Source: Chelativorans multitrophicus (GTDB taxonomy: Bacteria; Pseudomonadota; Alphaproteobacteria; Rhizobiales; Rhizobiaceae). From it: DNA of 64,000 bases. A program made the translations under genes and the position numbers. This document shows positions 45,694 to 61,833 of the stretch, one piece after another. The stretch is taken from positions 1,612,001 to 1,676,000 of the forward strand of contig NZ_JAAAPL010000001.1 of the NCBI RefSeq assembly GCF_011317445.1, written 5' to 3'. The notes beneath the pieces are model-generated. The model had not been told where the DNA came from and searched no databases. It saw only the letters and a list, made by a program, of their open reading frames with translations. Position 1 is the stretch's first letter. Each line of letters begins with the position of its first letter.

Positions 45694-46086
45694 TCAACCC
45701 TGCTTGGTCTTCTGGGCAACCGGATACCCGGCGCGCTTCCAGTCTCCAAAGCCGCCACGAAGGCTGCGTGCATCGATTCCCATCTCCATCGCCAGCCGGG
45801 CGGCAAGGAGCGACCGCCAGCCGGACGCGCAATAGAAGACATATGTCTTGCCTTCGGCGAATTTCGGCTTGTGGTAGGGGCTCTCGGGATCGATCCAGAA
45901 TTCCAGCATGCCTCGCGGCGCATGGAAGGCGGACGGAATCATCCCATCGCGCTCTAGCTCCCGCGGATCGCGGATGTCGACCAGCACGAATTCATCGGAA
46001 CCGTGCTGCGCAGCCATCTCCTCGACGCTCACGGATTTGACGACCGCGTCGGCCTCCGCAAGCATCTCCTTGTAACCTTTCGGCAT
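45694..46086 (-). CDS. Single-domain rhodanese (sulfurtransferase)
   Basis: 130 aa from ATG 46086 (MPKGYKEML). Rhodanese fold with VLVDIRDPRELERDGMIPSA and the catalytic loop FYCASGWRSLLAA, Cys first in the six-residue loop. GGFGDWKRAGYPV is the usual C-terminal end. First gene of the sulfur operon, divergent from araC with 118 bp between the start codons; moves sulfane sulfur to or from glutathione for the dioxygenase. Confidence 0.88.
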   Translation of the reverse strand: MPKGYKEMLAEADAVVKSVSVEEMAAQHGSDEFVLVDIRDPRELERDGMIPSAFHAPRGMLEFWIDPESPYHKPKFAEGKTYVFYCASGWRSLLAARLAMEMGIDARSLRGGFGDWKRAGYPVAQKTKQG

Positions 46087-46204
46087 CTTTTGTCCTCTCC
46101 CCACTCGGCTGAGGCAGGCAATGCCTGCCTCAAAATTCATCGATGCCGCGAACAATAGGGTTTGTCGAGCGGCTTCGCTTTCGATAGCGTGCCAAGTTAT
46201 ATCG

Positions 46205-47045: not shown

Positions 47046-49379
47046 CTACCGAACCTCGCCGTCACGCGGCAGGATAACTGGCGGCTCGAAAATGCCAACC
47101 GGCGGAGGCGCCCCTTCAAAAAGCGCCACCTGCACAAGCGTGGAGTTGCATGACGGGCCCTGACCGAGCGGCGAGGTCGCCCTGTCGGGCGTAAGCACAT
47201 TGGGGTTGCCGTGCCTCTCCAACGAACCAGAAACCTGCGGGTCCTCAGGATCGTACCATGCCCCAGTGGGCAACTGCACAACGCCGGGAAGGATATTATC
47301 GGTGAGCACCGCGCCTGCGAGGCAGGCTCCGCGCCGGTTGAAAACCTTGACCACGTCGCCGTCGCGGATGCCTCGGGCCTCGGCATCTCGTCTGTGGATG
47401 GTGAGCGGCGTACGGCCCGAGATTTTCGCAGCGCGGCTCACGCTACCTTGATCGTACTGGCTGTGGAGCTTGTCCGCCGGCTGCGGAGAAAGGAGATGCA
47501 GCGGAAATTCACTGGCGAGCGGACTTCCCAGCCACTCGCGCGGTTCGCGCCAGACCGGATGGCCTGGATAGCCTTCATAGCCGAATCCGGCAATCCTCTC
47601 CGAGAAAAGCTCGATCCGGCCGGACGGCGTCGGCAACGCATTTTTATCAGGATCGTTACGGAAGTTCGAAAGCAGTGTTGACGACTGCACCGTTCGCTCG
47701 ATCTCGAAATGCGCATGCTCCCAGAACTCCGGAAACGCTGGCATATCGCTGCCATGCGCGGCCGCACGCTCGCGCGCTTCCTCATAAAGCGTCTCGATCC
47801 ACTCCCAGGCCGTCTTTCCACCCGTGAAGACGTCCCTTTTTCCCAGGCGATCGGCCAGATCCGCCAGGATGTCGAAATCGTTGCGGGCTTTGCCAACGGA
47901 CTCGATGACTTTCCGCATGCCAACGACGAGATTGTCGCGGTTGGAAAAGGCTATGTCGTCCCGCTCCAGCGTCGTCGTCACAGGCAGCACGATGTCGGCA
48001 TGACGCGCCGCGGCGGTCCAGTATGGCTCGTGAACGATGATCGTCTCTGGCCGCTGCCACGCCTCAACCATGCGATTAAGGTCCTGATGATGGTGAAACG
48101 GATTGCCGCCGGCCCAATACACCATGCGGATGTCCGGATAGGTCAAACGGCGGCCATCGAAATTGAAGGACTGCCCTGGATTGAGCAGCATGTCGGTAAT
48201 ACGCGCCACGGGAATGAAGTCGGCGACCGGATTTTGCCCTTGTGGGAGGGAGGGCCATTTGAACGGCATTTCCGCGCGCCCCGCGCCGTTGGTCGATGAA
48301 TAGCCGAATCCGACGCCGCCGCCGGTAAGGCCAATCTGGCCCAGCATCGCCGCTAGAGTAACCGCCATCCAATAGGGCTGTTCACCGTCATCCGCTCGCT
48401 GGATTGCCCAGTTGACCATCAGCATCGTGCGGTTAGCAGCCATGGCGAGGGCGAGGTCGCGAATCCAGTCCGGCGCGATGCCTGAAATCTCCGCCGCCCA
48501 CTCCGCCGTTTTGGCCGTGCCGTCCTTCTCGCCAAGAATATAGGACTTGATCCTTTCGAAGCCGACGCAATAGCGCTCCAGGAAGGCACGGTCTTCAAGG
48601 CCCTCTGTCAGCAGCACATGCGCCATGGCGAGCATCACTGCCGTATCGGTGCCGGGCCGCAGCGGCTGCCATTCAAAGTCGACGTCAACGGGCCCGTCGT
48701 CGCGTGCAGGGGAAATGCAGACGAAGCGAACATTCCGCTTGCGCGCCTCTTGCAAGGCACTGCGAAGCGCGTGTTTTCCAATGCCGCCGGATTGCACTTG
48801 CGCGTTCCGGTGCGGCAGCCCGCCGAAGCAAACCACGAGGCGGCCTTCGGCCGCTATCCCGTCCCACGTCGAGTGATGCCCGGTCAATCCGTCCATGCTG
48901 CCGATAATGTGCGGAAGGATGACTTGCCCGGCCGCATAGGAATAGGAATGAACCGATGCGGTATATCCGCCGATCGAGTTCAGGAACCGATGAAGCTGGC
49001 TTTGCGCGTGGTGGAAACGGCCCGCGCTCGCCCAGCCATAGGAACCGCCGAAGATCGCCGAGTTCCCGTGTGCGAGGGAAATCCGCCTCAGTTCGGCGGC
49101 GACGAGGTCGAGAGCCTCGTCCCACTCCAGTTCCACGAACGGATCGGCGCCGCGCCTGCCGCAGGCGCGCGTGCCCGTGCGTTCAAGCCACTCGCGGCGC
49201 ACACTCGGTCGAGCGACGCGCAACCGGCCGTCGACCGATCCCACCAGGGATTGTCCTATTGGTGAAGGATCCGGGTCCCCCTGCCACGGCTCGACGCCGG
49301 CGATGCGCCCGCCCTCAAGCTGGATGCCGTAAGTTCCCCAATGCGTGGATGTCAGGACAGTCCGGTGGGACTTGTTCAT
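47046..49379 (-). CDS. Cytoplasmic molybdopterin oxidoreductase of the BisC/TMAO-DMSO reductase family
   Basis: 777 aa from ATG 49379. No Tat signal and no N-terminal Fe-S cysteine cluster, like BisC. Molybdenum-serine ligand region is SVHSYSYAAGQVILPHIIGS; cofactor contacts include FGGSYGWASAGRFHHAQSQ and PTGAWYDPED. Relatives reduce biotin or methionine S-oxide, DMSO or TMAO. As the last gene of the putative ergothioneine operon it may reduce an S-oxide of the substrate, use trimethylamine N-oxide, or take part in removing sulfur; I cannot choose between these. 77 bp separate it from the lyase gene. Confidence 0.85.
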   Translation of the reverse strand: MNKSHRTVLTSTHWGTYGIQLEGGRIAGVEPWQGDPDPSPIGQSLVGSVDGRLRVARPSVRREWLERTGTRACGRRGADPFVELEWDEALDLVAAELRRISLAHGNSAIFGGSYGWASAGRFHHAQSQLHRFLNSIGGYTASVHSYSYAAGQVILPHIIGSMDGLTGHHSTWDGIAAEGRLVVCFGGLPHRNAQVQSGGIGKHALRSALQEARKRNVRFVCISPARDDGPVDVDFEWQPLRPGTDTAVMLAMAHVLLTEGLEDRAFLERYCVGFERIKSYILGEKDGTAKTAEWAAEISGIAPDWIRDLALAMAANRTMLMVNWAIQRADDGEQPYWMAVTLAAMLGQIGLTGGGVGFGYSSTNGAGRAEMPFKWPSLPQGQNPVADFIPVARITDMLLNPGQSFNFDGRRLTYPDIRMVYWAGGNPFHHHQDLNRMVEAWQRPETIIVHEPYWTAAARHADIVLPVTTTLERDDIAFSNRDNLVVGMRKVIESVGKARNDFDILADLADRLGKRDVFTGGKTAWEWIETLYEEARERAAAHGSDMPAFPEFWEHAHFEIERTVQSSTLLSNFRNDPDKNALPTPSGRIELFSERIAGFGYEGYPGHPVWREPREWLGSPLASEFPLHLLSPQPADKLHSQYDQGSVSRAAKISGRTPLTIHRRDAEARGIRDGDVVKVFNRRGACLAGAVLTDNILPGVVQLPTGAWYDPEDPQVSGSLERHGNPNVLTPDRATSPLGQGPSCNSTLVQVALFEGAPPPVGIFEPPVILPRDGEVR

Positions 49380-49456
49380 ATTGTCAACCTCCAGCCGGCG
49401 CTTCCCGGCACGTGGTGCAAGGCTGTTCGGCGACCGGCTCGCTGTTGAACAATCGC

Positions 49457-51001
49457 TTAGGCACAGTGCTCGATTAGCATGTTTCGCAGCAGATCGATAA
49501 TGCCAGCCGTAGTCGGCCGGCCCGTCTCCTGAGACCGGCGCATCGCTTGCCCAGCCAGACGATAGGCGGCACGCGTCCCCTCGCCCAATCCATCGGAAAC
49601 GCCTGCGCAATCGGCAAGCGCGGCGGACAGGTGGATCTCCACCGCCAGCAACATCTCCAGAAGGTCCAGGCTTTGCGCGGTGAAAGCGATTGTTCCCGGA
49701 CCGAGCGAGCCATGATCCTCAACATCATGCGCCAGCGATGGAACATGGATCGAGGCCGGCGCGGCCAAAGTGCGCAGGCGAGCCGAAAGCTCGGCCGCGG
49801 AATAGGCAACCAGAGAGGTGACGGGCATTTCCGCATTCTGGATCGCATCGTCTATGCTGCTCATCGCCTGCAGCTTGCGGAAAACATGCGAGCAGCGCCG
49901 CTCGGACATCGAGGCTATATGGCAAATCCCGGTTCGCAATCCGTCGAATGCCAGCGCAATCGGGAGCGCCTGGAAATTTCCGTTGGAAAGGATCGCGCCG
50001 CTGCCCACATCGACCAAGGGGTTGTCCGAACGGCTGTTGAGTTCCACCTCGACCACGGTTGCGGCTTCGCAGACCTGACGGCGAACGGCACCGTGGACCT
50101 GCGGGATAGTGCGGAACGAAACCGGGTCCTGCAGCGACCGAGCGGTTGGGCTCGGTGTCCAGATGGCGCTGCCGGCCAAAAGCTCGCGCAGCCTCTGTCC
50201 CGTTTCGGCTTGCTCGGGATAGGATTTAGCAGCCTGCACCCGAGAATCGAGGGGCACCGGATTGCCGCCATATGCGTCCAAGCTCAGCGCTCCGGCCAGG
50301 TCGGCGAGCCGCAGCACCCGGCGTGCGCGCTCGACCGTCAATGCGCCGGCGCCGATTGCCAATCCGTTGCCGCTGATGAGAGCCAACCCCTCCTTGGGCT
50401 TGAGCCTGACCGGCGCTAGGCCGGCCGCTGCCAGCGCTTGCAGCGCCGGCATCAGTTCACCTTGATACATGGCGACGCCGCGGCCGATCATGACTTCGGC
50501 AATTGCCGACATCGAGCACAGGTCCGAAGCGCCGACCGAGCCGAATTCCGGGACTTGCGGATGAACGCGCCTATTCAGCATGGCCACCAGCAGGTCCAAG
50601 GTCTCCAGTCCCACTCCCGCGCCACCACGAGCGATACCGACGATCCGCGCAACCATGGTGGCTCTAACGTCGGACTCGCTTAACGGAGCACCGATGGCCC
50701 CCGCATGCGTGCGAATGATATAGGGCTGGTAGTCCTGCAGGAGCGCGGCCGATACTCTCTCGTTTCGCCGATGGCCCAATCCAGTGTTCAGACCATAAAC
50801 CGGCTCCGTGCGTTGTACGGCCTCATCGACGATTTCCCGGCTGGCCTCCACCAAGGCCCTGACCTCTGGCGAGAGAACAAGCTCTTCGCCGCTTGCGATA
50901 GCGGCAACCTCGGCGCAGGAGAGCGCAGCCTCCGTGAGTTGTCGTACGTTGCCCTGTCGGAGCTCGGCGGTCGTCTGGCCAGCCATGAAGTCAGCCGTCA
51001 T
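49457..51001 (-). CDS. Ergothionase-like aromatic amino acid lyase lacking the MIO glycine
   Basis: 514 aa, HAL/PAL superfamily. Conserved frame: Tyr69 in PVYGLNTGLGHRRN, ISGNGLAIGAGAL, and the C-terminal RPTTAGI region. The prosthetic-group tripeptide Ala-Ser-Gly is broken: the protein reads GSVGASDLCSMS (residues 154-165) where the family has GSVGASGDL, an in-frame loss of exactly the Gly codon. A functional MIO cannot form normally. Ergothionase (ergothioneine trimethylamine-lyase) is the known superfamily member that works without MIO, because trimethylamine is already a good leaving group. With the urocanase, desulfurase and hydantoinase homologues in the same operon, conversion of ergothioneine to thiourocanate and trimethylamine is the best assignment. 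ATGA overlap with the upstream ABC ATPase gene. Confidence 0.8.
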   Translation of the reverse strand: MTADFMAGQTTAELRQGNVRQLTEAALSCAEVAAIASGEELVLSPEVRALVEASREIVDEAVQRTEPVYGLNTGLGHRRNERVSAALLQDYQPYIIRTHAGAIGAPLSESDVRATMVARIVGIARGGAGVGLETLDLLVAMLNRRVHPQVPEFGSVGASDLCSMSAIAEVMIGRGVAMYQGELMPALQALAAAGLAPVRLKPKEGLALISGNGLAIGAGALTVERARRVLRLADLAGALSLDAYGGNPVPLDSRVQAAKSYPEQAETGQRLRELLAGSAIWTPSPTARSLQDPVSFRTIPQVHGAVRRQVCEAATVVEVELNSRSDNPLVDVGSGAILSNGNFQALPIALAFDGLRTGICHIASMSERRCSHVFRKLQAMSSIDDAIQNAEMPVTSLVAYSAAELSARLRTLAAPASIHVPSLAHDVEDHGSLGPGTIAFTAQSLDLLEMLLAVEIHLSAALADCAGVSDGLGEGTRAAYRLAGQAMRRSQETGRPTTAGIIDLLRNMLIEHCA

Positions 51002-51834
51002 TTCGACACGCCGGCTTGGGCCGGAATATGGACCCTGCGCTCGACAAAACGGGCTACGTAGTCATTCGCCGGATTTCTGAGTATGTCGTCGGGCAGCCCC
51101 GTCTGCACCACCTGACCGTCCTTGAGAATAGAGATTTTCGAGCCAATCCGCAGGGCCTCGTCGAGATCGTGGGTGATGAAGACGATCGTTTTCGCAAGGT
51201 TACGCTGCAGGTCGATAAGCTGGTCCTGCATCTCGGCCCGGATCAGCGGGTCGAGCGCGCTGAATGCCTCGTCCATCAGGATGATGTCCGTGTCGGCAGC
51301 AAGCGCACGCGCCAGGCCAACGCGCTGCTTCATGCCGCCCGATAGCTCCGAGGGATATTTGTTCTCGTAACCTTTGAGTCCGACGGCATCGATCCATTTC
51401 TTGCCTATCGCTTCCGCCTCGGCCTTCTTCGTGCCGCGCACGATATGGCCATAAGACGCATTCTGAAGGACGGTGCGATGCGGAAAGAGACCGAAACTCT
51501 GGAACACCATGCTGCTGTGATGCATCCGGAACTTGCGCAGGCCGGACGGCGTAAGCTGCATGATATCCTCTCCATTGTAGAGGATCTTCCCACTCGTGGG
51601 TTCGATCAAGCGATTGATGTGGCGCACGAGGGTAGACTTGCCTGAACCGGATAGGCCCATGATGACTGAGATCTGGCTGGCGCCGATCGACAGATTAACA
51701 TCGTCGAGCGCCACGACGCAGCCTGTCTTGGCAAGCACGTCGGCCTTGCTCACGCCGGCCTGCACCATTTTCAGCGCCTCTTTGTTGCGCCGGCCGAAAA
51801 TCTTGTAAACGTTCTGAAGTTCGATGGCAGCCAT
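50998..51834 (-). CDS. Betaine-type ABC transporter ATP-binding protein (ProV/HutV-like), putative ergothioneine importer
   Basis: 278 aa ATPase. Walker A GLSGSGKST, signature LSGGMKQRVGLARAL, Walker B IILMDEAFSALDPL, and the ProV-type insert (KEALKMVQAGVSKADVLAKT). Unlike the other ProV of the window (36155-37354) it has no C-terminal CBS-like extension, similar to rhizobial HutV. Overlaps the lyase gene by 4 bp downstream; 4 bp from the permease gene upstream. Ergothioneine is a betaine, which suits this transporter family. Confidence 0.9.
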   Translation of the reverse strand: MAAIELQNVYKIFGRRNKEALKMVQAGVSKADVLAKTGCVVALDDVNLSIGASQISVIMGLSGSGKSTLVRHINRLIEPTSGKILYNGEDIMQLTPSGLRKFRMHHSSMVFQSFGLFPHRTVLQNASYGHIVRGTKKAEAEAIGKKWIDAVGLKGYENKYPSELSGGMKQRVGLARALAADTDIILMDEAFSALDPLIRAEMQDQLIDLQRNLAKTIVFITHDLDEALRIGSKISILKDGQVVQTGLPDDILRNPANDYVARFVERRVHIPAQAGVSK

Positions 51835-51838
51835 GGTC

Positions 51839-52684
51839 CTAGTCCCTGCGTTGCGATTGGCCGAGGCCTTGCGTTATCCGGTCAAGAACCACTGCGAGGA
51901 TTACGATGCCGACGCCTGCCTCGAGGCCCTTGCCGACGTCCAGCGTCTGAATTCCTTCAAGAACCTGCTGACCTAGGCCGCGGGCGCCGATCATCGAAGA
52001 CACGACCACCATCGAAAGCGACATCATGATGGTCTGATTCAGGCCCGCGAGGATCGTGGGCACTGCAAGGGGGAGCTCCACGCCGAAGAGAATCTGGCGC
52101 GAGCTGCTGCCGAACGCCAACGCGGCCTCAACCACCTCCTGGTCGACCTGCCGGATGCCAAGGGAGGTCAGGCGGATTAGCGGCGGCACGCCGTAAATGA
52201 TGGTGGCCAGGACCGCCGGCACCTTTCCCAGACCGAAGAGCATGATCGCCGGGATCAGGTAAACGAAGGACGGCATCGTCTGCATGATGTCGAGCATCGG
52301 GATCAGGATGTTGCGCATGACGCGAACCTTCGCGACCAGAACGCCGGTAGGTATGCCGACGAGACACGAGATCAGCGTCGCCATCAGCATGAGCGCCAGC
52401 GTCTGCATGGTGAGATCCCACAGCCCCAGCATGCCGGCGAGCATCAACAGGCCCCCGACCAGAAGCGGCAGCTTGTAGTTGCGCACGCACAGGTAAGCCA
52501 CCGCCATGAATATGAGGATTGTACCCCACCAGGGCAGTGCCCTGAGAACCCACTCGATCTGCAACAGCCCGCTCAGGATGAAGTTCGAAATGGCGCGAAA
52601 GGTCTCGCCATAGCTCTCGATCAGGAAGGCGACGAAATCGTTTATCGGTTGGCTTATCGAGAATTCGAGACTCTTGGGAAACAC
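51839..52684 (-). CDS. Betaine-type ABC transporter permease (ProW/HutW-like)
   Basis: 281 aa starting with GTG 52684, which has AAGGAG 6 nt upstream; the longer ATG frame from 52741 lacks a ribosome-binding site. About six to seven membrane spans; LDIMQTMPSFVYLIPAIMLF and EAALAFGSSSRQILFGVELP are the family EAA-loop regions. Part of the importer encoded with the flanking genes. Confidence 0.9.
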   Translation of the reverse strand: MFPKSLEFSISQPINDFVAFLIESYGETFRAISNFILSGLLQIEWVLRALPWWGTILIFMAVAYLCVRNYKLPLLVGGLLMLAGMLGLWDLTMQTLALMLMATLISCLVGIPTGVLVAKVRVMRNILIPMLDIMQTMPSFVYLIPAIMLFGLGKVPAVLATIIYGVPPLIRLTSLGIRQVDQEVVEAALAFGSSSRQILFGVELPLAVPTILAGLNQTIMMSLSMVVVSSMIGARGLGQQVLEGIQTLDVGKGLEAGVGIVILAVVLDRITQGLGQSQRRD

Positions 52685-52747
52685 CGCACGCTCCTTCAGG
52701 GCTTTGGGAAAGCGCACCGCACGGAAGTGCGGTGCGCCCAACCGGAT

Positions 52748-53776
52748 TTAGTTCAGTCCCTGGTTGATTTTTTCTGCCGCTTCGGTGCTGACCCAATTGG
52801 TCCAGAGATGCGCGTAGTTCTTCAGGAACCACGTAGCTGCATCAGCGGGTTCGGCCTTTTCCTTCGCCATATAGGCAAGCGCCTCGTTGATGGTCTCCAG
52901 CGGAATGGTCGCTTTCGAGAGGATCTCAATGATGTCCGGCGCCTGATCGGCGAATTTCACGTTCACGTCGTAAACCACTTCGCCGAGCGGGAACGCACAA
53001 GCTTGGGTCTTGGGGTCGCTGCTCGTCAGTCCGTCCCAGCATTCGTCGGAATATGCCGGTTCTTCGAGCTGGAGCAGCTTGTAGGTGCCCATCAGCGCGG
53101 TCGGGTTCCAGTAATAGAAAAGAACAGGCTGCTTGCGCAGGTAGGACGATGCGACTTCGGCATCCAGCGCCGCACCCGAACCCGGAAGGAAGTTGGTGTA
53201 GTATTCGTCAAGGCCGTATCCCTCAAGCTTGGCGGTGTTCAGCCGCTCGCAGCTCCAGCCGGTCGGGCAGTTCAGGAAACGGCCCTTGCTGGGCTCCTCG
53301 GGATCGCTGAACAGTGCCCGGATTTTCGGGTCAGCGAGTTGCTCAACGCTCTTCAGCTCCGGCGCAAGCGGCTCGATTCCGCGTTCCGGATCTCCGTTGA
53401 CGACATAGTCGGGAACATACCAACCCTCGCGCGCGTCCAGATAGGGATGCCCGGCCGCACGCACCGTGCCTTCGGCACGCGCCTTGTTCATGACTTCGGT
53501 ACGGCCGACCCATTGCTCGGGGTAGATGTCGATGTCGCCGGTGATGAGCGCATGCGACATGATCAGGGAATTGCCCGATACCTTCTCGATCTTGCAGCCA
53601 TATCCATCGCCGAAGATCTTTGTCAGAAGCTCGGTCAGGAAGGCGCCGCTTTCCCACGACACATCGGCGAGACGCAGGGGCTTGCCCTGCTCGCAATAGC
53701 TTTCGGCAGAGGCGTTGGAGGTGGCCGCCAGCAGGAACAAAGCCGCAGCCGCTAGAGATTTTCTTTTCAAAGACAT
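52748..53776 (-). CDS. Betaine-type ABC transporter substrate-binding protein (ProX/HutX-like)
   Basis: 342 aa with signal peptide (LAAAALFLLAATSNASAE). OpuAC-family segments: ADVSWESGAFLTELLTKIFG, IDIYPEQWVGR, CPTGWSCERLNTAKL and VLFYYWNPTALMGTYKL, which carry the Trp/Tyr residues of a quaternary-ammonium cage. Encoded ahead of its permease and ATPase and after the hydantoinase gene (32 bp), so uptake and breakdown are co-expressed. Predicted ligand ergothioneine or a close relative. Confidence 0.88.
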   Translation of the reverse strand: MSLKRKSLAAAALFLLAATSNASAESYCEQGKPLRLADVSWESGAFLTELLTKIFGDGYGCKIEKVSGNSLIMSHALITGDIDIYPEQWVGRTEVMNKARAEGTVRAAGHPYLDAREGWYVPDYVVNGDPERGIEPLAPELKSVEQLADPKIRALFSDPEEPSKGRFLNCPTGWSCERLNTAKLEGYGLDEYYTNFLPGSGAALDAEVASSYLRKQPVLFYYWNPTALMGTYKLLQLEEPAYSDECWDGLTSSDPKTQACAFPLGEVVYDVNVKFADQAPDIIEILSKATIPLETINEALAYMAKEKAEPADAATWFLKNYAHLWTNWVSTEAAEKINQGLN

Positions 53777-53808
53777 TTCAGGTTACTCCCATTGAAAGAT
53801 CATTGTGA

Positions 53809-55188
53809 TCAGGCGCCGATTTGAATGGCATTGGCCCCGCGGGGGCGTATGAAGGTTCCGGTTCCGCTTGGGGCGACGACTGCGCTGCCGTCGAAGACGA
53901 CACGGCCGCGCAGGAAGGTGGCGACGGGACGGAACGGCAGTTCCATCCCCTCATAGGGGCTCCAGTCGACGAAATTGTTTCCGCTTGCCGCCGGATCGTA
54001 TCGCCTGGGATCGTGCCGCATCACCACGATGTCGGCGTCACGGCCTGGTTCCAGCGCCCCCTTGCGATGTCCGATGCGGAACAGCCGCGCCGGGTTGGCG
54101 GCCAAAAGCCGCGCCGCCCAGGTCATTGGCAAGCCGCGCTCGGCCAGCCCCTTCATGAGCAGAGCGTAAAGTACTTCCAGCCCTGGCACGCCGGACTTGT
54201 TCTTCAACATCTCAGGGTTTCGCTTGTGGTCGATCGACCAGGAAACGTGATCGGTCGAGACAACGGTAACGTTCCCCGCCGCCAGGTGCCGCCAAAGGGC
54301 TTCCACTTCGCGTCTAGGCCGAATAGGCGGGTTGATCTTTGCCATGCCGCCGAAGCGCCGCACATGATCTTCCTCATCGAGGGTGAGATAATGGATGCAG
54401 GCCTCGACCGTGGTATCGAAGCCCTGCGCGCGGTACCCGGCGCAAAGCTCGTAACCGCGCCCGACGGAACAATGAACGACATGGGTGGAGCAGCCGGCCT
54501 GCGCGCCTAGCTCGTAGGCTTCCGCCATCGCAAGCGTCTCGGCCGCAGCCGGGCGCGACATGGCATGGGCGCGATAATCCGTGATGCCCGACGCGGCGAC
54601 CTGGGCGAGCGCATGCCGCACCATCTCGTCATTCTCGTTGTGGATGCCTGCGATGAGGCCGTAGCGCCCAATCTCGGAAAAACATTCGTGCAGAATGGCA
54701 GGCCCGATGCGCGGAAAGCGCTCAGGATCGGTTTCGAACGTCGAAAACTTGAAACCGATTGCGCCGGCCTCCACCATGCCGGCGATTTCGCGGGCGCCGT
54801 CCTGGGCCCGCACCGTGCCGTAGAGCGCGAAATCGACACGCGACTGCTGCGCCGCCTCCTCGGCCTTGCGCTGCAGCCGTTCGCCCGTGCACACCAGGAA
54901 ACCCTCGTCATAGGGCATGTCGACGATCGTCGTCACACCGCCGGCCGCCGCCGAGCGGGTGGACCAGAGGAAATCTTCCTGGTCGAGTTGGGAACGGGAG
55001 TGGACCTGAGCGTCGATGGCCCCGGGCAGAATGTAGTCGCCGTCGAAATCGTATTTCTCGCGCGCTGCCGGGGGCGTGCCGGAGCCGACCCGTTCGACCA
55101 GGCCGCCCCGTATCGCAACATAACCATCCTCGTAGACGCGGTCCGTCGTAACCACACGTCCAGTCACGACGACGTCGAAATCGCTCAT
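53809..55188 (-). CDS. Hydantoinase/dihydroorotase-family amidohydrolase; likely hydantoin-5-propionate hydrolase
   Basis: 459 aa from ATG 55188 (MSDFDVVV); a much longer open frame upstream is read-through. Amidohydrolase barrel: metal region PGAIDAQVHSRSQ, where the first His of the usual HxH is Gln, a variant also known in some dihydroorotases; bridging Lys in GAIGFKFSTF; His in LIAGIHNEN and THVVHCSV; Asp in VVSTDHVSW. Would open hydantoin-5-propionate to N-carbamoylglutamate, the fourth step of ergothioneine catabolism. Ring substrate inferred from the operon. Confidence 0.8.
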   Translation of the reverse strand: MSDFDVVVTGRVVTTDRVYEDGYVAIRGGLVERVGSGTPPAAREKYDFDGDYILPGAIDAQVHSRSQLDQEDFLWSTRSAAAGGVTTIVDMPYDEGFLVCTGERLQRKAEEAAQQSRVDFALYGTVRAQDGAREIAGMVEAGAIGFKFSTFETDPERFPRIGPAILHECFSEIGRYGLIAGIHNENDEMVRHALAQVAASGITDYRAHAMSRPAAAETLAMAEAYELGAQAGCSTHVVHCSVGRGYELCAGYRAQGFDTTVEACIHYLTLDEEDHVRRFGGMAKINPPIRPRREVEALWRHLAAGNVTVVSTDHVSWSIDHKRNPEMLKNKSGVPGLEVLYALLMKGLAERGLPMTWAARLLAANPARLFRIGHRKGALEPGRDADIVVMRHDPRRYDPAASGNNFVDWSPYEGMELPFRPVATFLRGRVVFDGSAVVAPSGTGTFIRPRGANAIQIGA

Positions 55189-55238
55189 GCTGTTTGAAGT
55201 CCTTTCGTTGGAAACCCCCCGGCAGACGCGGCCGGCGA

Positions 55239-56882
55239 TCAGGTCTGAAGCTGCTCCGCTATGCCGATCCCGGTCTCGCGCGCCAGCTGCTTCGCTGTTT
55301 CGTAGCCGGCCGAGGCATGGCGCAACACACCAATGGCGGTGTCGTTGTCCATCACCCTGGCCAGCCGGGCTGCATCCTCGGCCGTGCCAGTGGCGACGGT
55401 AGTCACCCCCGCCGATTGCATCGCACTGCCGCCCGAGTGCAGCGCAATCAGGTCGGCTCCCGAAGCGCAGTTCAGCAAGGCGTTGAGCAACGGCCAGTCG
55501 GAAATCGCGTCGGAGCCGTCCAGCATGTTTTCCGTCTCGCGGTAAGGCAACGTCGCTGAACCGGAATCGAGGTGGTCTCGCGTGAAGGCGATTGGCCCCG
55601 CCAGCGCACCCTTGGCCACCAGGTCGTTCACGGCCAGGGCCAGCCTCTTGCGCTCGCCCAGGCCCAGCCAACCAATTCGCGCCGGCAGGCCTGTGAACTT
55701 GACATGCTCGCGCGCCATCCTGATCCAGCTGACGATGCGGTGGTCGGACGGGAACATCTCCAGGATCAGATCGTCGATGCGATGGATGTCCGAAGGATCG
55801 CCGGAGACCGCGATCCAGCGGAACGGGCCGATGCCCTCGCAAAAGAGCGGCCGGATATAAAGGTCGATAAACGAGCCGAAGCCGAAGGAACCATCAAGGC
55901 CGGCGTCCCTGGCGTACCGGCGCAGCGCATTGCCATACTCGAATACCACCGCGCCGCGCTTCTGCATTTCGAGCATCGCGCCGACATGAATAAGCAGCGT
56001 TTCGTTGGAGCGCTGCTTGAGGATTTCGGGGGCGCTCTTGCGCAGCGCGGCAACCTCTTCGACGGTCATGCCGAGCGGGACATAGCCGTTCACCGGATCG
56101 GCCATCGTCTGGTCGGTCACCACATCGGGTATGATGCCGCGTTCGAGGAGTGTAGGCAGCACGGCCGCGATATTGCCGACGAGCCCCACCGAACAGCCGA
56201 TCCGTGCGTCACGGGCTTCATTCAGCCAGGCGAGCGCCTCGTCGAGATCGGCGGTCATGCGCTCGCAGTAGCCTGTATCGATGCGGCGGCGTATCCGGCC
56301 CTCATCGGCCTCGACCACGAGGATCGCGGCTCCGGCGAGTTTGCCGGCCAGCGGCTGCGCACCGCTCATGCCGCCACAGCCCGCGGATACGATCAGTCGA
56401 CCGGCCAGTGAACCGCCAAAATGCTTTCTACCGACGCTGGAGAAGGTTTCATAGGTGCCCTGCAGAATGCCCTGGCTGCCGATATACTGCCATGCCGCCG
56501 CCGTCATGCCGGGCTTGATCGTCAGGCCCTTATCAGCCAGCGCGCGGAAGGAATCGTCATCAGACCACGCGCCGACGACGTTGCCGTTCGCCATCAGCAC
56601 CAGGGGCGTCGTGTTCTGCGATGGAAAGCGGCCTACCGGCCGGCCCGATTGCATCACGAGCGTCTGGTCGATCTCGAGTTCCTTGAGGGCGGCCACGGCC
56701 TGGTCAAAGCTCTTCCAGTCGCGGGCGGCCTTTGCCCAACTCATATAGATGACGAGCTCAGCGGGGTTCTCCGCATTTTCGAGATTGTTCTCGAGCAATC
56801 TCAGGATTGCTTCCTGCCGCCAGCCCTTACAGCGAAGCTGAGGGCCGCGCTGGGCCTGGATCGGTAGAGGGGGTCTGGTCAC
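55239..56882 (-). CDS. Urocanase homologue; likely thiourocanate hydratase
   Basis: 547 aa from GTG 56882, fixed by AAGGAGG 5 nt upstream. NAD+-dependent urocanase fold: QSGRPVGRFPSQN, GSQGILQGTYETF, SAGCGGMSGAQP, TDQTMADPVNGY, EYGNALRR and Cys in PLFCEGIGPFRWIAVSGDP. The N-terminal signature differs from true urocanases: YMSWAKAARDW replaces YGGTARNW. That divergence and the desulfurase in the same operon favour thiourocanate, hydrated to the 2-thiohydantoin 5-propionate, over urocanate. Also no hutI or formiminoglutamate genes are nearby. Confidence 0.82.
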   Translation of the reverse strand: MTRPPLPIQAQRGPQLRCKGWRQEAILRLLENNLENAENPAELVIYMSWAKAARDWKSFDQAVAALKELEIDQTLVMQSGRPVGRFPSQNTTPLVLMANGNVVGAWSDDDSFRALADKGLTIKPGMTAAAWQYIGSQGILQGTYETFSSVGRKHFGGSLAGRLIVSAGCGGMSGAQPLAGKLAGAAILVVEADEGRIRRRIDTGYCERMTADLDEALAWLNEARDARIGCSVGLVGNIAAVLPTLLERGIIPDVVTDQTMADPVNGYVPLGMTVEEVAALRKSAPEILKQRSNETLLIHVGAMLEMQKRGAVVFEYGNALRRYARDAGLDGSFGFGSFIDLYIRPLFCEGIGPFRWIAVSGDPSDIHRIDDLILEMFPSDHRIVSWIRMAREHVKFTGLPARIGWLGLGERKRLALAVNDLVAKGALAGPIAFTRDHLDSGSATLPYRETENMLDGSDAISDWPLLNALLNCASGADLIALHSGGSAMQSAGVTTVATGTAEDAARLARVMDNDTAIGVLRHASAGYETAKQLARETGIGIAEQLQT

Positions 56883-56912
56883 GCGAACCTCCTTGCAGCC
56901 ATACAAGCCAAC

Positions 56913-58181
56913 TCAATGTTCCAGTGCTGCGTCGATGCGGATCAACGCTTCCAGCAGCACTCCGGCGCCTGCGGCGCATTGCTCCGGCGCCGTCCATTCC
57001 TCAGGGCAATGGCTGCGGCCGTCCTTGCTGGGAACGAAAATCATCGCCATCGGCGCGATCTTGCCCATGAAGGCGGCATCATGGCCTGCGCCGCTCGGCA
57101 TCTCGCGGGTCGAAAGGCCGAGGCTTTCGGCGGCAGCCGCCAAATGGCCTCGCAGCGCCTCGTTGCAAGGCGACGGCAGCGAACGCGAGAGTTCGGTGAA
57201 CGCCGTCCGCTTTACCCGCGAACGCACTGCCGCGCCACTGGTGAAAGCGTCCAGCTCCGCGAGGAAGGTTTCCAAATCCGCCACGTGCTCGGACCGTGCC
57301 TCGACGATCAGCCTCACTCTTCCGGGCACGACATTTGCGGCATTCGGCTCGGAGGCAATCACACCGGTAGTGGCCACGAAGAAGCGCTTCCGGGCAAGCT
57401 TCTCGGCACTCTCACGCACCTGCATGACGGTTTCCGCGGCGGCGACCAGTGCATCCGCCCGCAAATCCATGGGAGTCGTCCCGGCATGGTCGGCAGCACC
57501 CTGGAAGACGATCTCGACTCGGACGATGCCGACAATCCCGGTCACAATCCCGATATCTGTCCCCGATTGCTCCAGAACCCGCCCCTGCTCGATGTGCAGT
57601 TCGAGAAAGGCGCCGATATCGGTCCGCTTTGCGCCAGCCCGGTCATGGGGTTTGCCGCCTATTCGTTCCATCGCGTCGATCAACTGCTCGCCATCTGGCG
57701 CAGTCAGGGCCAGATGCCGATCCTCGAGGCTCCCACTCATCACGCGGCTGCCCACGCAGGAGAGACCGTATTCGCTTGGCTCTTCGGCAAGAAAATCTAT
57801 CACCTCGACGGTGTGCCGGAGGCGGATGCCTCGGTCCGCGAGCGAACGCACAGCTTCCAGCCCTGCAAGGACGCCGAGGATGCCGTCGAACCGTCCGCCT
57901 GAGGGGACCGTATCGGAATGCGAACCGATCGCGATCACCGGCAGTGCCGGGTCCTGCCCTTCCAGGCGTCCGATCAGGTTCGGCGCTGCATCCTCACGCA
58001 CGGTCATGCCAGCATCAAGAAAACGGCGGCGCAGCCACGTGCGCCCTTCCACGAAAAGGCCGCTGAACGACCGGCGGGTGTAGGGCCGAGCATTATCGGT
58101 GATCGCCGCCAGGTCCATCAAATTCGACCACAGGCGCTGCGCATCGATTGCGAGCCGGTTAGGCCTTTCCACCAAGTTCAT
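56913..58181 (-). CDS. M20 Zn-dependent N-carbamoyl amino acid amidohydrolase; likely N-carbamoyl-L-glutamate hydrolase
   Basis: 422 aa, hydantoinase/carbamoylase subgroup of M20. Metal ligands in IGSHSDTVPSGGRFDG, general base pair in FLAEEPSEYG, ELHIEQGRVLE, and AGHDAAFMG. Would release CO2 and ammonia from N-carbamoylglutamate to give glutamate, the final step of the proposed pathway; allantoate amidohydrolase is the main alternative. Overlaps the GST gene by 4 bp. Confidence 0.85.
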   Translation of the reverse strand: MNLVERPNRLAIDAQRLWSNLMDLAAITDNARPYTRRSFSGLFVEGRTWLRRRFLDAGMTVREDAAPNLIGRLEGQDPALPVIAIGSHSDTVPSGGRFDGILGVLAGLEAVRSLADRGIRLRHTVEVIDFLAEEPSEYGLSCVGSRVMSGSLEDRHLALTAPDGEQLIDAMERIGGKPHDRAGAKRTDIGAFLELHIEQGRVLEQSGTDIGIVTGIVGIVRVEIVFQGAADHAGTTPMDLRADALVAAAETVMQVRESAEKLARKRFFVATTGVIASEPNAANVVPGRVRLIVEARSEHVADLETFLAELDAFTSGAAVRSRVKRTAFTELSRSLPSPCNEALRGHLAAAAESLGLSTREMPSGAGHDAAFMGKIAPMAMIFVPSKDGRSHCPEEWTAPEQCAAGAGVLLEALIRIDAALEH

Positions 58182-58801
58182 GACGTGGCCTCAACGACCA
58201 GCGGCTCCCAGCCGGGCTGGGCTTCGACGCGTCGAAGCCATGCGCCGATGTTCTGATAGATGCCCATGTCATAGCCACCGAAATGGGCTTGGGAGACGTA
58301 GCCGTAAAGCGCGATATCGGCGATGGTGAAGCCGGCATCAGTGATCCATTCGCGGCCCGCGAGACACCCGTCAAGCCGAGAGAGGCCCGCCTTGCCGGCC
58401 TCATGATAGAATCGCATACGCTCGGCATTCTCGGCTTGCGTTCCGCGCAGATTGTAGAAGCGCGGCAGCGCCAGGGGCTTCAGCAGGTCGGCTTGCTCAA
58501 AGAACAGCCATGAAGTGACCTGAGCCCGAGCAAGCGGCTCGGTCGGCAGAAGCGGTGTTCCTTCCGCAAGATAGAGCAGGATCGCACCCGATTCCGCGAT
58601 CGCGCGGCCGTCCTCCAGCTCCAGTACCGGCACGCGCTGAAGCGGATTCATGGCGGTGAAGGCATCGGTCTTGGCCGCACCTTTCGCAAGGTCGTGAGTG
58701 ACTCTTTCGAAGGGTATCCCGAGTTGGCGCAGCAGGATGCGCACCTTCCAGGCGTTGCAGGACATCAGACTGTCGTGAAGACGGTACATGGCGATACTCA
58801 C
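58178..58801 (-). CDS. Glutathione S-transferase family protein
   Basis: 207 aa; thioredoxin-like N-terminal domain with the active-site stretch DSLMSCNAWKVRILLRQLG, cis-Pro in RVPVLEL and the GSH-binding AESGAILLYLAEG; helical C-terminal domain with GFTIADIALYGYV. Overlaps both neighbours by 4 bp, so it is an integral operon member. It might conjugate the electrophilic thiourocanate, or take up sulfur as glutathione persulfide for the dioxygenase encoded 15 kb away. Both are guesses. Confidence 0.87.
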   Translation of the reverse strand: MSIAMYRLHDSLMSCNAWKVRILLRQLGIPFERVTHDLAKGAAKTDAFTAMNPLQRVPVLELEDGRAIAESGAILLYLAEGTPLLPTEPLARAQVTSWLFFEQADLLKPLALPRFYNLRGTQAENAERMRFYHEAGKAGLSRLDGCLAGREWITDAGFTIADIALYGYVSQAHFGGYDMGIYQNIGAWLRRVEAQPGWEPLVVEATS

Positions 58802-59871
58802 AGATAGGAACGCAAATCGACGCCCATTGCCTCTTCGGCTTCCGGGTAGACCGCCGGATCGAGCGCGCCTTTGCCGATTGGAAACTTGGACCGGGGGGCC
58901 GTGATGACCGCCACCTCGTCGCCAATCCGCAGGCGCGACACGGCCAACGGGTTTCCGCTCGCGGGGTCGAGCGTGCCGATCATGTCCGGGAAGGTGGCGA
59001 CGCGCTCGCCATCAACTGTTGCCGTCATCAATTCGTTGAACACGCCCAGTTCAGACCGCCCCTCACGGCCCTCGACGACGACGACCCCGACATCGAATCC
59101 GTTGCCGTAGGTAACGCTGTTGGTCACTACCCGGCCTTGCACCAGGCAACACCCCCCGAGAAAATCCACCGTCGCCGCGACACGTTCGGATGCCCTGGCC
59201 GCCAGCATCGCGGCGCCGAGGTCCAGTTGGAAGGAGATCGCACCGGACGCTCCGTTCTCCACGGCGAAACCGGCCGTAATCGGCCCGCGCGCGGCCATTA
59301 CCAACCCGCCGTTCTGGGCGGCCGCCCAGCGAAGGATCTTCTCGGTGAGGAGGATGTTGCCGGTCGCCGTTACCGAGAGTCGGTCTCCATCGGCGGTCTC
59401 GCCGCCGACGCCAGTCTGAGTGATCACGATATCCGGGCGAGAGGCAAGGCCCATCCCGCCCATGGCGACCGTGGGGTGGCCGCGCCCGTTCGAGGCGAGA
59501 TCGATATAGTCGATGCCCAGCGACGCTGCTACGATCCAGGCATTGAACCCCGGAACATGGCCGCAAATGACGCCGGCAGGCGTACGGCCGAGCATGCTGA
59601 TTAGCAGGCGCGCCGCCTCGACCGAGTCGGCCGGCTTCACTTTCGGCTTTCCACCGCCCGGCGCCCCGATGCCGGTCGCAACGATCAGCGACGCGTCGGG
59701 GGCCATCTCATCCGCCGATACCAGACGCACGGGGCCGGCGGCGAGCGCTTGTTCCGCGATCGCTCGCTGTCCTGCCATCGATTCCATGCCACGCCCGCCG
59801 GCGGAAAGGAACAGCCCGCCATAAAGCGCGGGCTCGATGTCACCATGCGAAAGTATACGGATCACATTCAA
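58798..59871 (-). CDS. DUF917 protein, S-methyl thiohydantoin desulfurase family
   Basis: 357 aa. The N-terminal GLFLSAGGRGMESMAGQRAI, GIGAPGGGKPKVKPADSVEA and the TQTGVGGETADGDRL-type centre belong to the family named S-methyl thiohydantoin desulfurase. In the pathway it would replace the sulfur of the thiohydantoin-5-propionate intermediate with oxygen, releasing sulfide (or methanethiol from an S-methyl substrate). First gene of the ten-gene operon, 102 bp from the divergent LysR-type gene. Confidence 0.82.
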   Translation of the reverse strand: MNVIRILSHGDIEPALYGGLFLSAGGRGMESMAGQRAIAEQALAAGPVRLVSADEMAPDASLIVATGIGAPGGGKPKVKPADSVEAARLLISMLGRTPAGVICGHVPGFNAWIVAASLGIDYIDLASNGRGHPTVAMGGMGLASRPDIVITQTGVGGETADGDRLSVTATGNILLTEKILRWAAAQNGGLVMAARGPITAGFAVENGASGAISFQLDLGAAMLAARASERVAATVDFLGGCCLVQGRVVTNSVTYGNGFDVGVVVVEGREGRSELGVFNELMTATVDGERVATFPDMIGTLDPASGNPLAVSRLRIGDEVAVITAPRSKFPIGKGALDPAVYPEAEEAMGVDLRSYL

Positions 59872-59973
59872 TCCCCGCCGATCTTTCTGGTCTAGCTACC
59901 TCCTATGCTGGGAGCCTTGTTGCACTCCAATGATAGTTTTCTATAAAGGGTATCAATTTTTGCGAAGGCCAAA
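59872..59973. promoter_or_regulatory. Divergent promoter region of the ergothioneine-type operon and the tandem LysR gene
   Basis: 102 bp. Contains the dyad ATAGTTTTCTAT (59933-59944) within a wider TGATA...TATCA arrangement, a T-N11-A-type layout usual for LysR targets. The interval is AT-rich near the LysR gene. AAGG before ATG 59974 and GGGGA before ATG 59871 serve the two start codons. Confidence 0.45.
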
Positions 59974-61833
59974 ATGAATCTTAGGGCCCTCTGGTACTTC
60001 CTGTCCGCTTTTTCGGGAGCAGGCATCAACAACGGGGCGAAACGGCTGGGAATTTCGCAAGCCACGCTAAGCGCTGCGATCACCGGCCTTGAGGAACTGC
60101 TGGGCGCAGCCCTGTTCGACCGCACGCCGGCCGGGCTGCAGCCTACCCCGATGGCAATGCGGTTCAGCGCTTTCGCGAGCGCGATCACGACCGATGTTGA
60201 AATGGCCTTCCTGGACATCGCAGCGAATTCCAGCGGCGAGATCGAGCCTGCCCCCGTAATTTCCTATGACGTCCCACTCTGCTCTGTTGCCGACTGGGCC
60301 CTTCTGCGCGGCATGCTGGCATCCATTCCGCTCGGGGGCGCGAGGGGAATAAGGATTGCTTCGGATTTGACTGAAAGAGACGTTCCGAGGCCTGGCTCGG
60401 TGTCTGTCTCCTATGGGCTCGCCAGGCCCGGATCGGAGGAAATGGACGGACCGGGAGAGATTATCCCCGACAGCTGGTGCCTGGTCACGACCGGGTCCCG
60501 CTTTTCGGAGGAGCAGCCAATTGCATGGGACGATATCATCAAGGCACCCCTGCTGATGGCCCGAGTGTCTGGCAATCCCGAGCAGCGGCTGTTTCGGCAG
60601 GCCCGGCCGCCCGAACTTATCAGGTTGGACCGCTTGAGGTCATATACCAATCTTCTTTCGCAGGGTGACACCTCCCTGCTGCTGCCGCGATCCTGCCTGC
60701 TGGACGGCTTCGTCTCCAGCGAGCTCCGCATGCTGAAAATAGAAGGTGCCCCGCTGCAGCCGGCAATCCAGGTGCAATGCCATGATGGTTCGCCCTTGCC
60801 CGTGAAGCGCCTCGCCGCAGAAATAGCAAGGGAGCTTTCAGCCACTTTGCCGGCGACCAATTATCGCCAGACACGGCTGCAAGTGCTTGAACGCGGTTTG
60901 GAAATCCAAGCCTTCCGGAGCTTTACAGAAACCATCAGGACCGGAAGCACGACCAAAGCCGCCAACCAGCTCCGCATTGTCCAGCCTGCACTGTCGCGCC
61001 AGATCCGGAAGCTGGAAAACGCAACGGGACAGCAGCTTTTCATCCGCTCCGAGCATGGCATGACGCCTACCGCCGCGAGCCGCCGACTGCATCTGCTGAC
61101 CAAGACGGTTATGGCCGATTACGCGACCGGACTTGAGCAGATGAAGGGCAGGAAAAGCATCGGCGAATCCGCCGCCGCCCGGGTCCGCTTCGGCATTATC
61201 CCGGCTGCGGATTCGAGCAGCCTCATAGCTCAAGGCGTCGCGAAAACCATTGCGCAATGGAAGATCGCATTTCCAGAGGCTGAAGTGATGATGGCGGAGG
61301 GCTATTCCAGCGAGCTTCTTCGCTGGCTGCGTACCCATCTGATCGACTTTGCCATTATCGATACCCATGAAAGAGAACCGGGGCTGGTCGTCAATCCGAT
61401 CTTCACGGAGCCAATCAGCTTGGTCTTCGCGAAAGGCTCGATCTGGGACACCGGCGAGCCGGAGATTGCGATGTCGAAATTGGACCCAAGGCGCCTATGC
61501 CTTCCTTCTAAAGAATTTGGTCTTCGGGCCCATTTCGACCTGGCAATGTCCGAGATTGACAAGGGTGTTTCGCCTGGTCTCCAAATAGACAGCCTGGCGG
61601 TTTGCCTGGGCCTCGTGACGACGGCAGAATGGGCAACGCTTCTGCCTTTCAGCGCCGTGCATCATCTTTTGGCAGCGCGGCAATTGAGCTACCGCGTTCT
61701 GGTCCAGCCGCAAGTGGATCGGCGCATCTGTTCTGTGCGCAGCCTGCGCGCACCGCAGACGACCGCTTCGGCGGCCCTGATGCGTGCGCTGGAGGTCTCC
61801 CTCGCGCAGCTTCTGCACCAGGATGGCCGGTGA
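59974..61833 (+). CDS. Tandem-duplicated LysR-type transcriptional regulator
   Basis: 619 aa, twice the normal LysR length. Residues 3-60 form one winged HTH (LGISQATLSAAITGLEELLG) followed by about 230 residues of effector domain; residues 311-370 form a second HTH (LRIVQPALSRQIRKLENATG) followed by a second effector domain. The two halves are only distantly alike, so this is a fusion or old duplication, with one uninterrupted frame. Divergent from the ergothioneine-type operon and almost certainly its regulator. The N-terminal half is the more diverged one. Confidence 0.85.
   Translation: MNLRALWYFLSAFSGAGINNGAKRLGISQATLSAAITGLEELLGAALFDRTPAGLQPTPMAMRFSAFASAITTDVEMAFLDIAANSSGEIEPAPVISYDVPLCSVADWALLRGMLASIPLGGARGIRIASDLTERDVPRPGSVSVSYGLARPGSEEMDGPGEIIPDSWCLVTTGSRFSEEQPIAWDDIIKAPLLMARVSGNPEQRLFRQARPPELIRLDRLRSYTNLLSQGDTSLLLPRSCLLDGFVSSELRMLKIEGAPLQPAIQVQCHDGSPLPVKRLAAEIARELSATLPATNYRQTRLQVLERGLEIQAFRSFTETIRTGSTTKAANQLRIVQPALSRQIRKLENATGQQLFIRSEHGMTPTAASRRLHLLTKTVMADYATGLEQMKGRKSIGESAAARVRFGIIPAADSSSLIAQGVAKTIAQWKIAFPEAEVMMAEGYSSELLRWLRTHLIDFAIIDTHEREPGLVVNPIFTEPISLVFAKGSIWDTGEPEIAMSKLDPRRLCLPSKEFGLRAHFDLAMSEIDKGVSPGLQIDSLAVCLGLVTTAEWATLLPFSAVHHLLAARQLSYRVLVQPQVDRRICSVRSLRAPQTTASAALMRALEVSLAQLLHQDGR

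Follow-up and report, generated by a model that had tools for sequence, protein, structure and literature searches.

What compound is broken down by an operon of Chelativorans multitrophicus that combines a lyase without the usual cofactor, a urocanase homologue, a DUF917 protein, a betaine-type importer and a molybdoenzyme? The operon lies in a 64,000-nucleotide stretch of DNA (contig NZ_JAAAPL010000001.1, positions 1,612,001 to 1,676,000; hereafter the window), where its ten minus-strand genes run in one direction from 59871 to 47046 and a LysR-type regulator diverges on the other side. The breakdown of ergothioneine proceeds in five steps, catalyzed by ergothionase, thiourocanate hydratase, thiohydantoin desulfurase, a hydantoin hydrolase and a carbamoyl hydrolase, and catabolic enzymes for S-methylergothioneine have reportedly been described by the Seebeck group. 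A preliminary description, made from the letters of the window, had proposed an operon for ergothioneine-type catabolism that has a regulator and a betaine-type importer of its own. This proposal was borne out by curated models and Pfam families. Overall, we consider it probable (about 0.68) that the operon serves the uptake and complete breakdown of S-methylergothioneine, in which the molybdoenzyme may act as an S-oxide reductase and a glutathione S-transferase (GST) may act in the S-methyl branch.

The branch was assigned with NCBIfam 20.0 profiles, which have curated cut-offs and separate models for plain and S-methyl ergothioneine catabolism. The urocanase homologue scored 980.2 bits against NF058531 (S-methyl thiourocanate hydratase; cut-off 880), the best of three urocanase models. 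It failed NF058530 (thiourocanate hydratase; 723.6 bits, cut-off 930) and passed the broad hutU model at a lower score (683.3 bits, cut-off 375). The DUF917 protein likewise passed NF058532 (S-methyl thiohydantoin desulfurase; 538.8 bits, cut-off 450) and failed its plain counterpart NF058529 (247 bits, cut-off 440), while the hydantoinase passed the ErtD model and the M20 protein the ErtE model. At the level of sequence, these scores place the four central and late enzymes in their families. A second operon in the same genome, 0.19 Mb away, showed the opposite pattern (NF058530, 1047 bits against 930; NF058529, 584 bits against 440). By the pair of models that defines a plain operon, thiourocanate hydratase and thiohydantoin desulfurase, the window operon thus failed on both and the other operon passed on both. 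In a tree of 66 urocanases, the window protein falls in an S-methyl clade of 33 rows (support 99/96), separate from a plain clade of 21 rows (100/100) and a HutU clade of 12 rows (100/99). It does not group with HutU; such a grouping is what the preliminary description had named as evidence against its proposal. The third urocanase of the genome belongs to the HutU clade and is encoded elsewhere, beside a HutH bearing the 4-methylideneimidazole-5-one (MIO) motif. Five further urocanases of the S-methyl clade were run against the models (L165, L022, L133, L004 and L021), and all pass the S-methyl model; the plain loci were classed by the urocanase tree, the model test among them covering the genome's own plain operon.

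On these profiles, the operon very probably represents the S-methyl branch of ergothioneine catabolism and not generic ergothioneine breakdown. Taken together, the S-methyl models, the urocanase tree and the separate plain operon make S-methylergothioneine the most likely substrate, from which sulfur would leave as methanethiol and not as sulfide; substrate and product are read from the names of the curated models and from pathway chemistry. The preliminary description had offered ergothioneine or S-methylergothioneine as the imported compound, with sulfide among the products. The S-methyl option is retained by models and tree, plain ergothioneine is assigned to the other locus, and sulfide gives way to methanethiol.

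The GST was compared across 29 other S-methyl loci (20 of the 24 of one set, seven from genome searches and two plasmid regions) and 21 plain loci. Four SUP05/gammaproteobacterial loci were left out of the S-methyl tally, namely L018, whose urocanase is HutU by model (930 bits, cut-off 375), and L019, L020 and L024, which group with it; L126, L127 and L129 were removed as duplicates of L006, L010 and L007. Where a locus is truncated at a contig end or at the limit of the 10 kb flank, as happens in several cases, an absence is weak evidence. A GST homologue was found in 23 of the 29 S-methyl loci versus one of the 21 plain loci, and this single plain-locus protein is 29% identical and encoded on the opposite strand. 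Homologues of the hydantoinase and of the M20 protein each occur in 18 of the 21 plain loci. By these locus counts the GST is a marker of the S-methyl branch. It may act only there, and our guesses for its target are the 2-methylthio carbon, by displacement, or methanethiol.

The lyase of the window is without the MIO triad, as the preliminary description had noticed: motif alignment gives GAS-DL, a one-residue deletion, versus GASGDL in HutH. An excerpt of a published study describes ergothionase as lacking MIO too (PMC13405746). The window lyase has Ser at the position of the active-site Asn in HutH rows and QDPVSFR where the Pandoraea HutH has QDPYSLR, and the lyase of the genome's plain operon has Ser and QDPLSFR at the same positions. 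The compared positions, the active-site Asn and the QDP stretch, are presumably functional residues. The window lyase scored 346.9 bits against hutH (cut-off 539.15) and passed no NCBIfam cut-off. In a 30-row lyase tree, a branch (100/99) separates the 19 lyases with the one-residue deletion from the MIO rows. Two results nevertheless speak against an ergothionase-type function: the window lyase is nearer to the HutH 1gkj (221.1 bits) than to the Treponema ergothionase 6s7j (173.5 bits), and in the tree it sits on a long branch of unsettled place, outside the main group of lyases from plain operons. The lyase of the genome's plain operon is closest to ergothionase (188 bits to 6s7j versus 118 to 7tqr and 100 to 1gkj). 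As to grouping with HutH, which the preliminary description had named as evidence against its proposal, the tree places the lyase outside the MIO clade, at a position that is not settled further. From MIO loss, operon and importer, the window lyase is probably an S-methylergothioneine trimethylamine-lyase.

The first-step enzyme varies within the nine-row urocanase subclade that holds the window. The Agrobacterium and Pantoea lyases carry a three-residue deletion (GSVGY-L) and are 33-37% identical to the window lyase, despite about 70% identity for the Agrobacterium ProW and ProV. The Lichenihabitans lyase has an intact MIO motif and passes hutH (680 bits, cut-off 539), and the sole PF00221 match in the assembly of Bradyrhizobium CSA207 (G683) is a HutH with an intact MIO motif. 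A PF00221 profile search of 19 genomes found no match in three (G686, G1200 and G1077) and one match each, at 594 to 622 bits and hence in the HutH range, in six (G683, G687, G1109, G1187, G1102 and G1266); all nine carry the S-methyl desulfurase or urocanase. Transport genes vary too: in both L022 and Agrobacterium pAtA6 the S-methyl genes follow ATP-binding cassette (ABC) genes of the branched-chain type, pAtA6 has ProXWV as well, and another ABC type was recognised by eye beside those of L008. Direct uptake of S-methyl thiourocanate would explain the lyase-poor genomes.

Two further loci were noted in this survey. The urocanase of L023 is 77% identical to that of the window, on a contig of a metagenome-assembled genome that may be chimeric, and no DUF917, GST or molybdoenzyme homologue was found within 10 kb of it. 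Genome G086, of the same class and 2.7 Mb in size, has 52 PF00221 matches, corresponding to an estimated 25-30 lyase genes since many genes are split in two matches. Several of these genes are in tandem (L089, C7:598-10871, C6:273111-280327), a marked expansion of HAL/ergothionase-type lyases, and one array directly follows an S-Me-THD-like gene (409 bits, below the cut-off of 450).

These results bear on three other substrates. Ordinary ergothioneine catabolism, with unmethylated ergothioneine degraded and sulfide released, would have the same five-step layout, and its operons share the hydantoinase and M20 homologues. It is nonetheless very unlikely here, given that the urocanase and the DUF917 protein score above the cut-offs of the S-methyl models and below those of the plain ones, that the urocanase tree agrees, that the genome already has a plain operon and that 20 of 21 plain loci are without the GST; plain ergothioneine as the main substrate was accordingly rejected, with the genome's plain operon as control. 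Canonical histidine utilisation is hardly credible. The pass of the broad hutU model (683 against 375) would fit it, but it was ruled out by the urocanase tree, the absent MIO motif and the failed hutH model, and a HutU-clade urocanase with an MIO-bearing HutH is present elsewhere in the genome. The expectation that automated annotation would call the locus histidine utilisation holds for the broad hutU pass of the urocanase, but four of the ten gene products score above the cut-offs of models specific to the ergothioneine pathway. Another S- or Se-methylated imidazole, such as S-methyl-2-thiohistidine, Se-methylselenoneine or S-methyl thiourocanate taken up directly, is improbable to a lesser degree: it would account for the varied front ends (one- or three-residue MIO deletions, an intact-MIO lyase, or an MIO HutH only) and the varied neighbouring ABC genes, but the ProX-type importer and MIO-less lyase of the window fit a trimethylammonium substrate. 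With S-methylergothioneine as the preferred substrate, the core pathway is one already known, and the right branch of it is now named. The claim that every step has a matching family stands for the five known steps but gives no role to the molybdoenzyme or the GST; these two and the interchangeable front ends are the added features.

What, then, is the role of the molybdoenzyme? The protein is 40% identical to E. coli BisC and TorZ, and by eye it has no twin-arginine translocation (Tat) signal, like BisC. Its TIGR00509 score lies below the cut-off for BisC-type membership (955.4 bits, cut-off 1017.55), and the genome's three close paralogues stay under it too (930, 896 and 884). An ungapped alignment to the Rhodobacter dimethyl sulfoxide (DMSO) reductase 1eu1 shows that Tyr114, Trp116 and the molybdenum ligand Ser147 (DMSO reductase numbering) are all kept; E. 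coli TorA is without the Tyr. According to an excerpt of PMC5122715, S-oxide reductases keep both Tyr and Trp, true N-oxide reductases are without the Tyr, and MtsZ-type enzymes reduce methionine and biotin sulfoxides. A TorA-type N-oxide reductase is disfavoured since Tyr114 is kept. Compared with BisC, MtsZ and DMSO reductase, the window enzyme thus keeps the three residues but falls below TIGR00509, in a separate 45-row clade, and is linked to thioimidazole catabolism. Asn323 and Ala325 flank the Trp aligned with DMSO reductase Trp322 in 15 of 15 sequences of the linked group, which consists of seven operon-linked enzymes and eight database rows of the same subclades whose context was not read. 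The 18 Mesorhizobium-type rows have Ser at both positions, and among 106 other rows position 323 is Ser in 63 and Ala in 36, and position 325 is Ser in 93. This count excludes another 22 rows from the wider clade, at least one of which (P0034) also has Asn and Ala. The two residues are a hint of changed specificity.

Of the 29 S-methyl loci besides the window, six were found to have the molybdoenzyme: one on Agrobacterium pAtA6, one in Bradyrhizobium CSA207 and four in Pantoea. Together with the window, these seven loci all fall in the one urocanase subclade of nine (100/99). The gene order differs among them: DUF917-GST-M20-urocanase-molybdoenzyme-hydantoinase-ProXWV-lyase in Agrobacterium, DUF917-GST-M20-urocanase-molybdoenzyme-hydantoinase in Bradyrhizobium and DUF917-GST-urocanase-molybdoenzyme-hydantoinase-M20-transporter-lyase in Pantoea, with the molybdoenzyme as the last gene of the operon in the window. 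The database search covered the best 120 of 7998 scored candidates. In a 158-row tree, the seven linked enzymes fall within a 45-row clade (Shimodaira-Hasegawa-like approximate likelihood ratio test 99, quick method) and form no group of their own; the other 38 rows, mostly of unread genomic context, include database rows under the names Rhizobium rhizogenes, Ensifer and Bradyrhizobium genosp. P. Among plasmids, 238 records have a homologue at E 1e-100, but only five reach at least 60% identity. All five are Agrobacterium plasmids that almost duplicate one another, and on them the S-methyl DUF917 gene lies about 3.6 kb from the molybdoenzyme (one of the five regions was read). Among the best four candidates per genome, one of 218 Bradyrhizobium genomes reaches 60% identity, and this is the linked one. 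In the window's family (best two candidates per genome), three of 394 genomes do so: the window's own and two in which the molybdoenzyme is not linked to the operon. In that family, 93 of the 394 genomes have a homologue at E 1e-200 or better. The S-methyl operon is itself rare, the S-methyl desulfurase model being passed in one of 385 genomes of the class and one of 297 of the family, both the window's genome. It was also passed in one of 349 genomes in the family of Pandoraea G685, eight of 265 Bradyrhizobium and four of 61 Pantoea.

Several findings argue against a molybdoenzyme devoted to this pathway. In 23 of the other 29 S-methyl loci, some of them truncated, it was not found, and two rows of its own nine-row urocanase subclade are without it; these absences make it dispensable for the core pathway. 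The same molybdoenzyme clade also holds a subclade at 66% identity, called Mesorhizobium-type from database rows of that name, and the operon was not adjacent in the two regions checked; the idea that every close homologue is linked to an S-methyl operon failed for these two genomes. A BisC paralogue at 47% identity (C1:1871427-1873652, L070) is located some 4 kb past the plain operon of the genome, and therefore the case for such enzymes going only with S-methyl substrates is weaker. Moreover, enzymes with both Tyr and Trp reduce N-oxides too, as stated in the excerpt of PMC5122715.

These points could favour a general S- or N-oxide reductase, acting on trimethylamine N-oxide (TMAO), methionine sulfoxide or biotin sulfoxide for redox balance or for recycling TMAO and not as a pathway enzyme. 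The breadth of the family (93 of 394 family genomes), its absence from most S-methyl loci and the N-oxide activity of the combined enzymes (PMC5122715, excerpt) agree with this reading, which is nevertheless unlikely. Agrobacterium, Bradyrhizobium and Pantoea have all kept the gene, in several arrangements of the operon, and the residues by the active-site Trp are altered in all 15 linked-group rows (N323, A325). G683, in which no MIO-less lyase was found, has the gene too; since the only lyase of that assembly is an MIO one, the molybdoenzyme seems independent of trimethylamine release, which speaks against TMAO. An S-oxide reductase of this pathway remains the preferred role for the molybdoenzyme, at somewhat less than even odds, and more tentative still is the reading that it is devoted to reducing S-oxides of S-methylated thioimidazoles, which would give ergothioneine catabolism a molybdoenzyme step. 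Among open-licence papers, which do not include the key subscription articles, none was found that links this molybdoenzyme to the breakdown of ergothioneine.

Other molybdoenzyme regions were seen in passing. In L200 and L201, enzymes 66% identical to that of the window stand beside peptide-type ABC genes, with enolase-superfamily genes recognised by eye in L200; these enzymes maybe act on another S-oxide substrate. A gene near the L070 paralogue encodes a PatB-type C-S lyase domain and, judged by eye, a thioredoxin-like N-terminus; an FAD oxidoreductase and HyuA/HyuB-like genes in the same region were recognised by eye only.

How does the system compare with known ones? The order of the chemistry is that of the five-step ergothioneine pathway and the enzymes are homologous, but the urocanase and DUF917 proteins belong to S-methyl subfamilies. 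Four window enzymes pass the models of the S-methylergothioneine enzymes (NF058531, NF058532, ErtD and ErtE), to which the window adds a BisC-family molybdoenzyme and a twin-LysR regulator. The metallopterin-dependent ergothioneine synthase MES is likewise a metallopterin enzyme of ergothioneine chemistry, but an excerpt of PMC9516567 describes it as an acetylene-hydratase-like enzyme whose ligand is Cys, in which an Fe4S4 cluster is expected and to which a cysteine desulfurase is fused, unlike the DMSO-reductase-like window enzyme with Ser147. An MES-type synthase was ruled out by ligand and domain make-up. The EgtUV-type ergothioneine importer is, like that of the window, broadly a betaine-class ABC system; the window importer has separate ProX, ProW and ProV proteins.

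In the proposed mechanism, ProXWV would import the betaine and the MIO-less lyase would expel trimethylamine to give S-methyl thiourocanate. The urocanase homologue would hydrate this product to S-methyl thiohydantoin, from which the DUF917 enzyme would free methanethiol; ErtD would then open hydantoin-5-propionate, and ErtE would yield glutamate, CO2 and NH3. S-methyl thioethers oxidise to sulfoxides. The BisC-family enzyme would, as the most plausible role, reduce the S-oxide of the imported compound or of S-methyl thiourocanate, letting oxidised substrate enter the pathway.

The ten-gene minus-strand run and the divergent LysR gene are all present where the preliminary description had placed them, and a Pfam family was assigned to each of the ten operon genes (Table 1). 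Three junctions have a 4-base overlap and the other six have gaps of 4 to 77 bases. The mechanical open reading frames of the hydantoinase, urocanase and molybdoenzyme extend too far upstream, and the starts chosen instead are 55188 (ATG), 56882 (GTG, behind AAGGAGG) and 49379 (ATG), respectively. ProX scored 87.7 bits against NF008334 (cut-off 215) and is 54% identical to its positional counterpart on Agrobacterium pAtA6. Downstream of the operon are a rhodanese gene (45694-46092) and an AMP-binding acyl-CoA synthetase gene (43982-45658), possibly tied to sulfur release, and a similar rhodanese was seen by eye near the S-methyl operon of L008 (6674-7078).

Table 1. Genes and promoter region of the S-methyl operon, in positions of the window.
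Feature	Position	Strand	Basis
S-methyl thiohydantoin desulfurase (DUF917 / S-Me-THD)	58798..59871	-	NF058532; Pfam S-Me-THD_N, S-Me-THD_C
Glutathione S-transferase, predicted for the S-methyl branch	58178..58801	-	Pfam GST_N/GST_C; locus counts
ErtE, N-carbamoyl-L-glutamate amidohydrolase (M20)	56913..58181	-	NF058540, 607.1 bits (cut-off 520)
S-methyl thiourocanate hydratase (urocanase family), GTG start	55239..56882	-	NF058531; tree
ErtD, hydantoin-5-propionate amidohydrolase	53809..55188	-	NF058538, 775.7 bits (cut-off 600)
ProX-type periplasmic binding protein, betaine substrate probable	52748..53776	-	Pfam OpuAC
ProW-type permease	51839..52741	-	Pfam BPD_transp_1; 71% to pAtA6 counterpart
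ProV-type ATPase	50998..51834	-	TIGR01186, 334.5 bits (cut-off 326.6)
MIO-less lyase (aromatic amino acid lyase family), probably S-methylergothioneine trimethylamine-lyase	49457..51001	-	Pfam Lyase_aromatic; motif; tree
BisC-family molybdoenzyme, probable S-oxide reductase	47046..49379	-	TIGR00509 score; Tyr/Trp/Ser residues; linkage
Twin-LysR regulator, divergent	59974..61833	+	two HTH_1, one LysR_substrate
Divergent promoter region, 102 bases	59872..59973	.	one T-N11-A LysR-like candidate box at 59901

The regulator is a 619-residue protein with two LysR helix-turn-helix domains and one recognisable substrate domain. The candidate LysR box in the divergent promoter region has partial symmetry. 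Among the loci tested, twin-domain homologues recurred beside three S-methyl operons other than that of the window and beside one plain operon; the twin-LysR regulators seen elsewhere are L008 7998-9905, L005 328-2178, L011 8069-9799 and L073 12493-14310. As a mark of the S-methyl branch the regulator was rejected, a homologue being present in 12 of 29 S-methyl versus 10 of 21 plain loci when any LysR is counted.

What does this operon mean for the bacteria that carry it? Ergothioneine is a diet-derived antioxidant, known from mushrooms, and S-methylergothioneine has been measured in animals and people. How much of these compounds is available in soil, and possibly in guts, is shaped by the bacteria that remove them. 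Some S-methyl operons have no ergothionase-like lyase, a hint that bacteria may exchange S-methyl thiourocanate with one another; this would agree with the cross-feeding of thiourocanate that an excerpt of PMC13405746 cites. If the proposed role of the molybdoenzyme is true, the S-oxide of S-methylergothioneine or of S-methyl thiourocanate would be a real environmental nutrient and an overlooked oxidised pool. Likewise, interchangeable front ends, with differing lyases and importers or none, joined to one conserved S-methyl core would allow whole betaine, deaminated or oxidised forms to be eaten.

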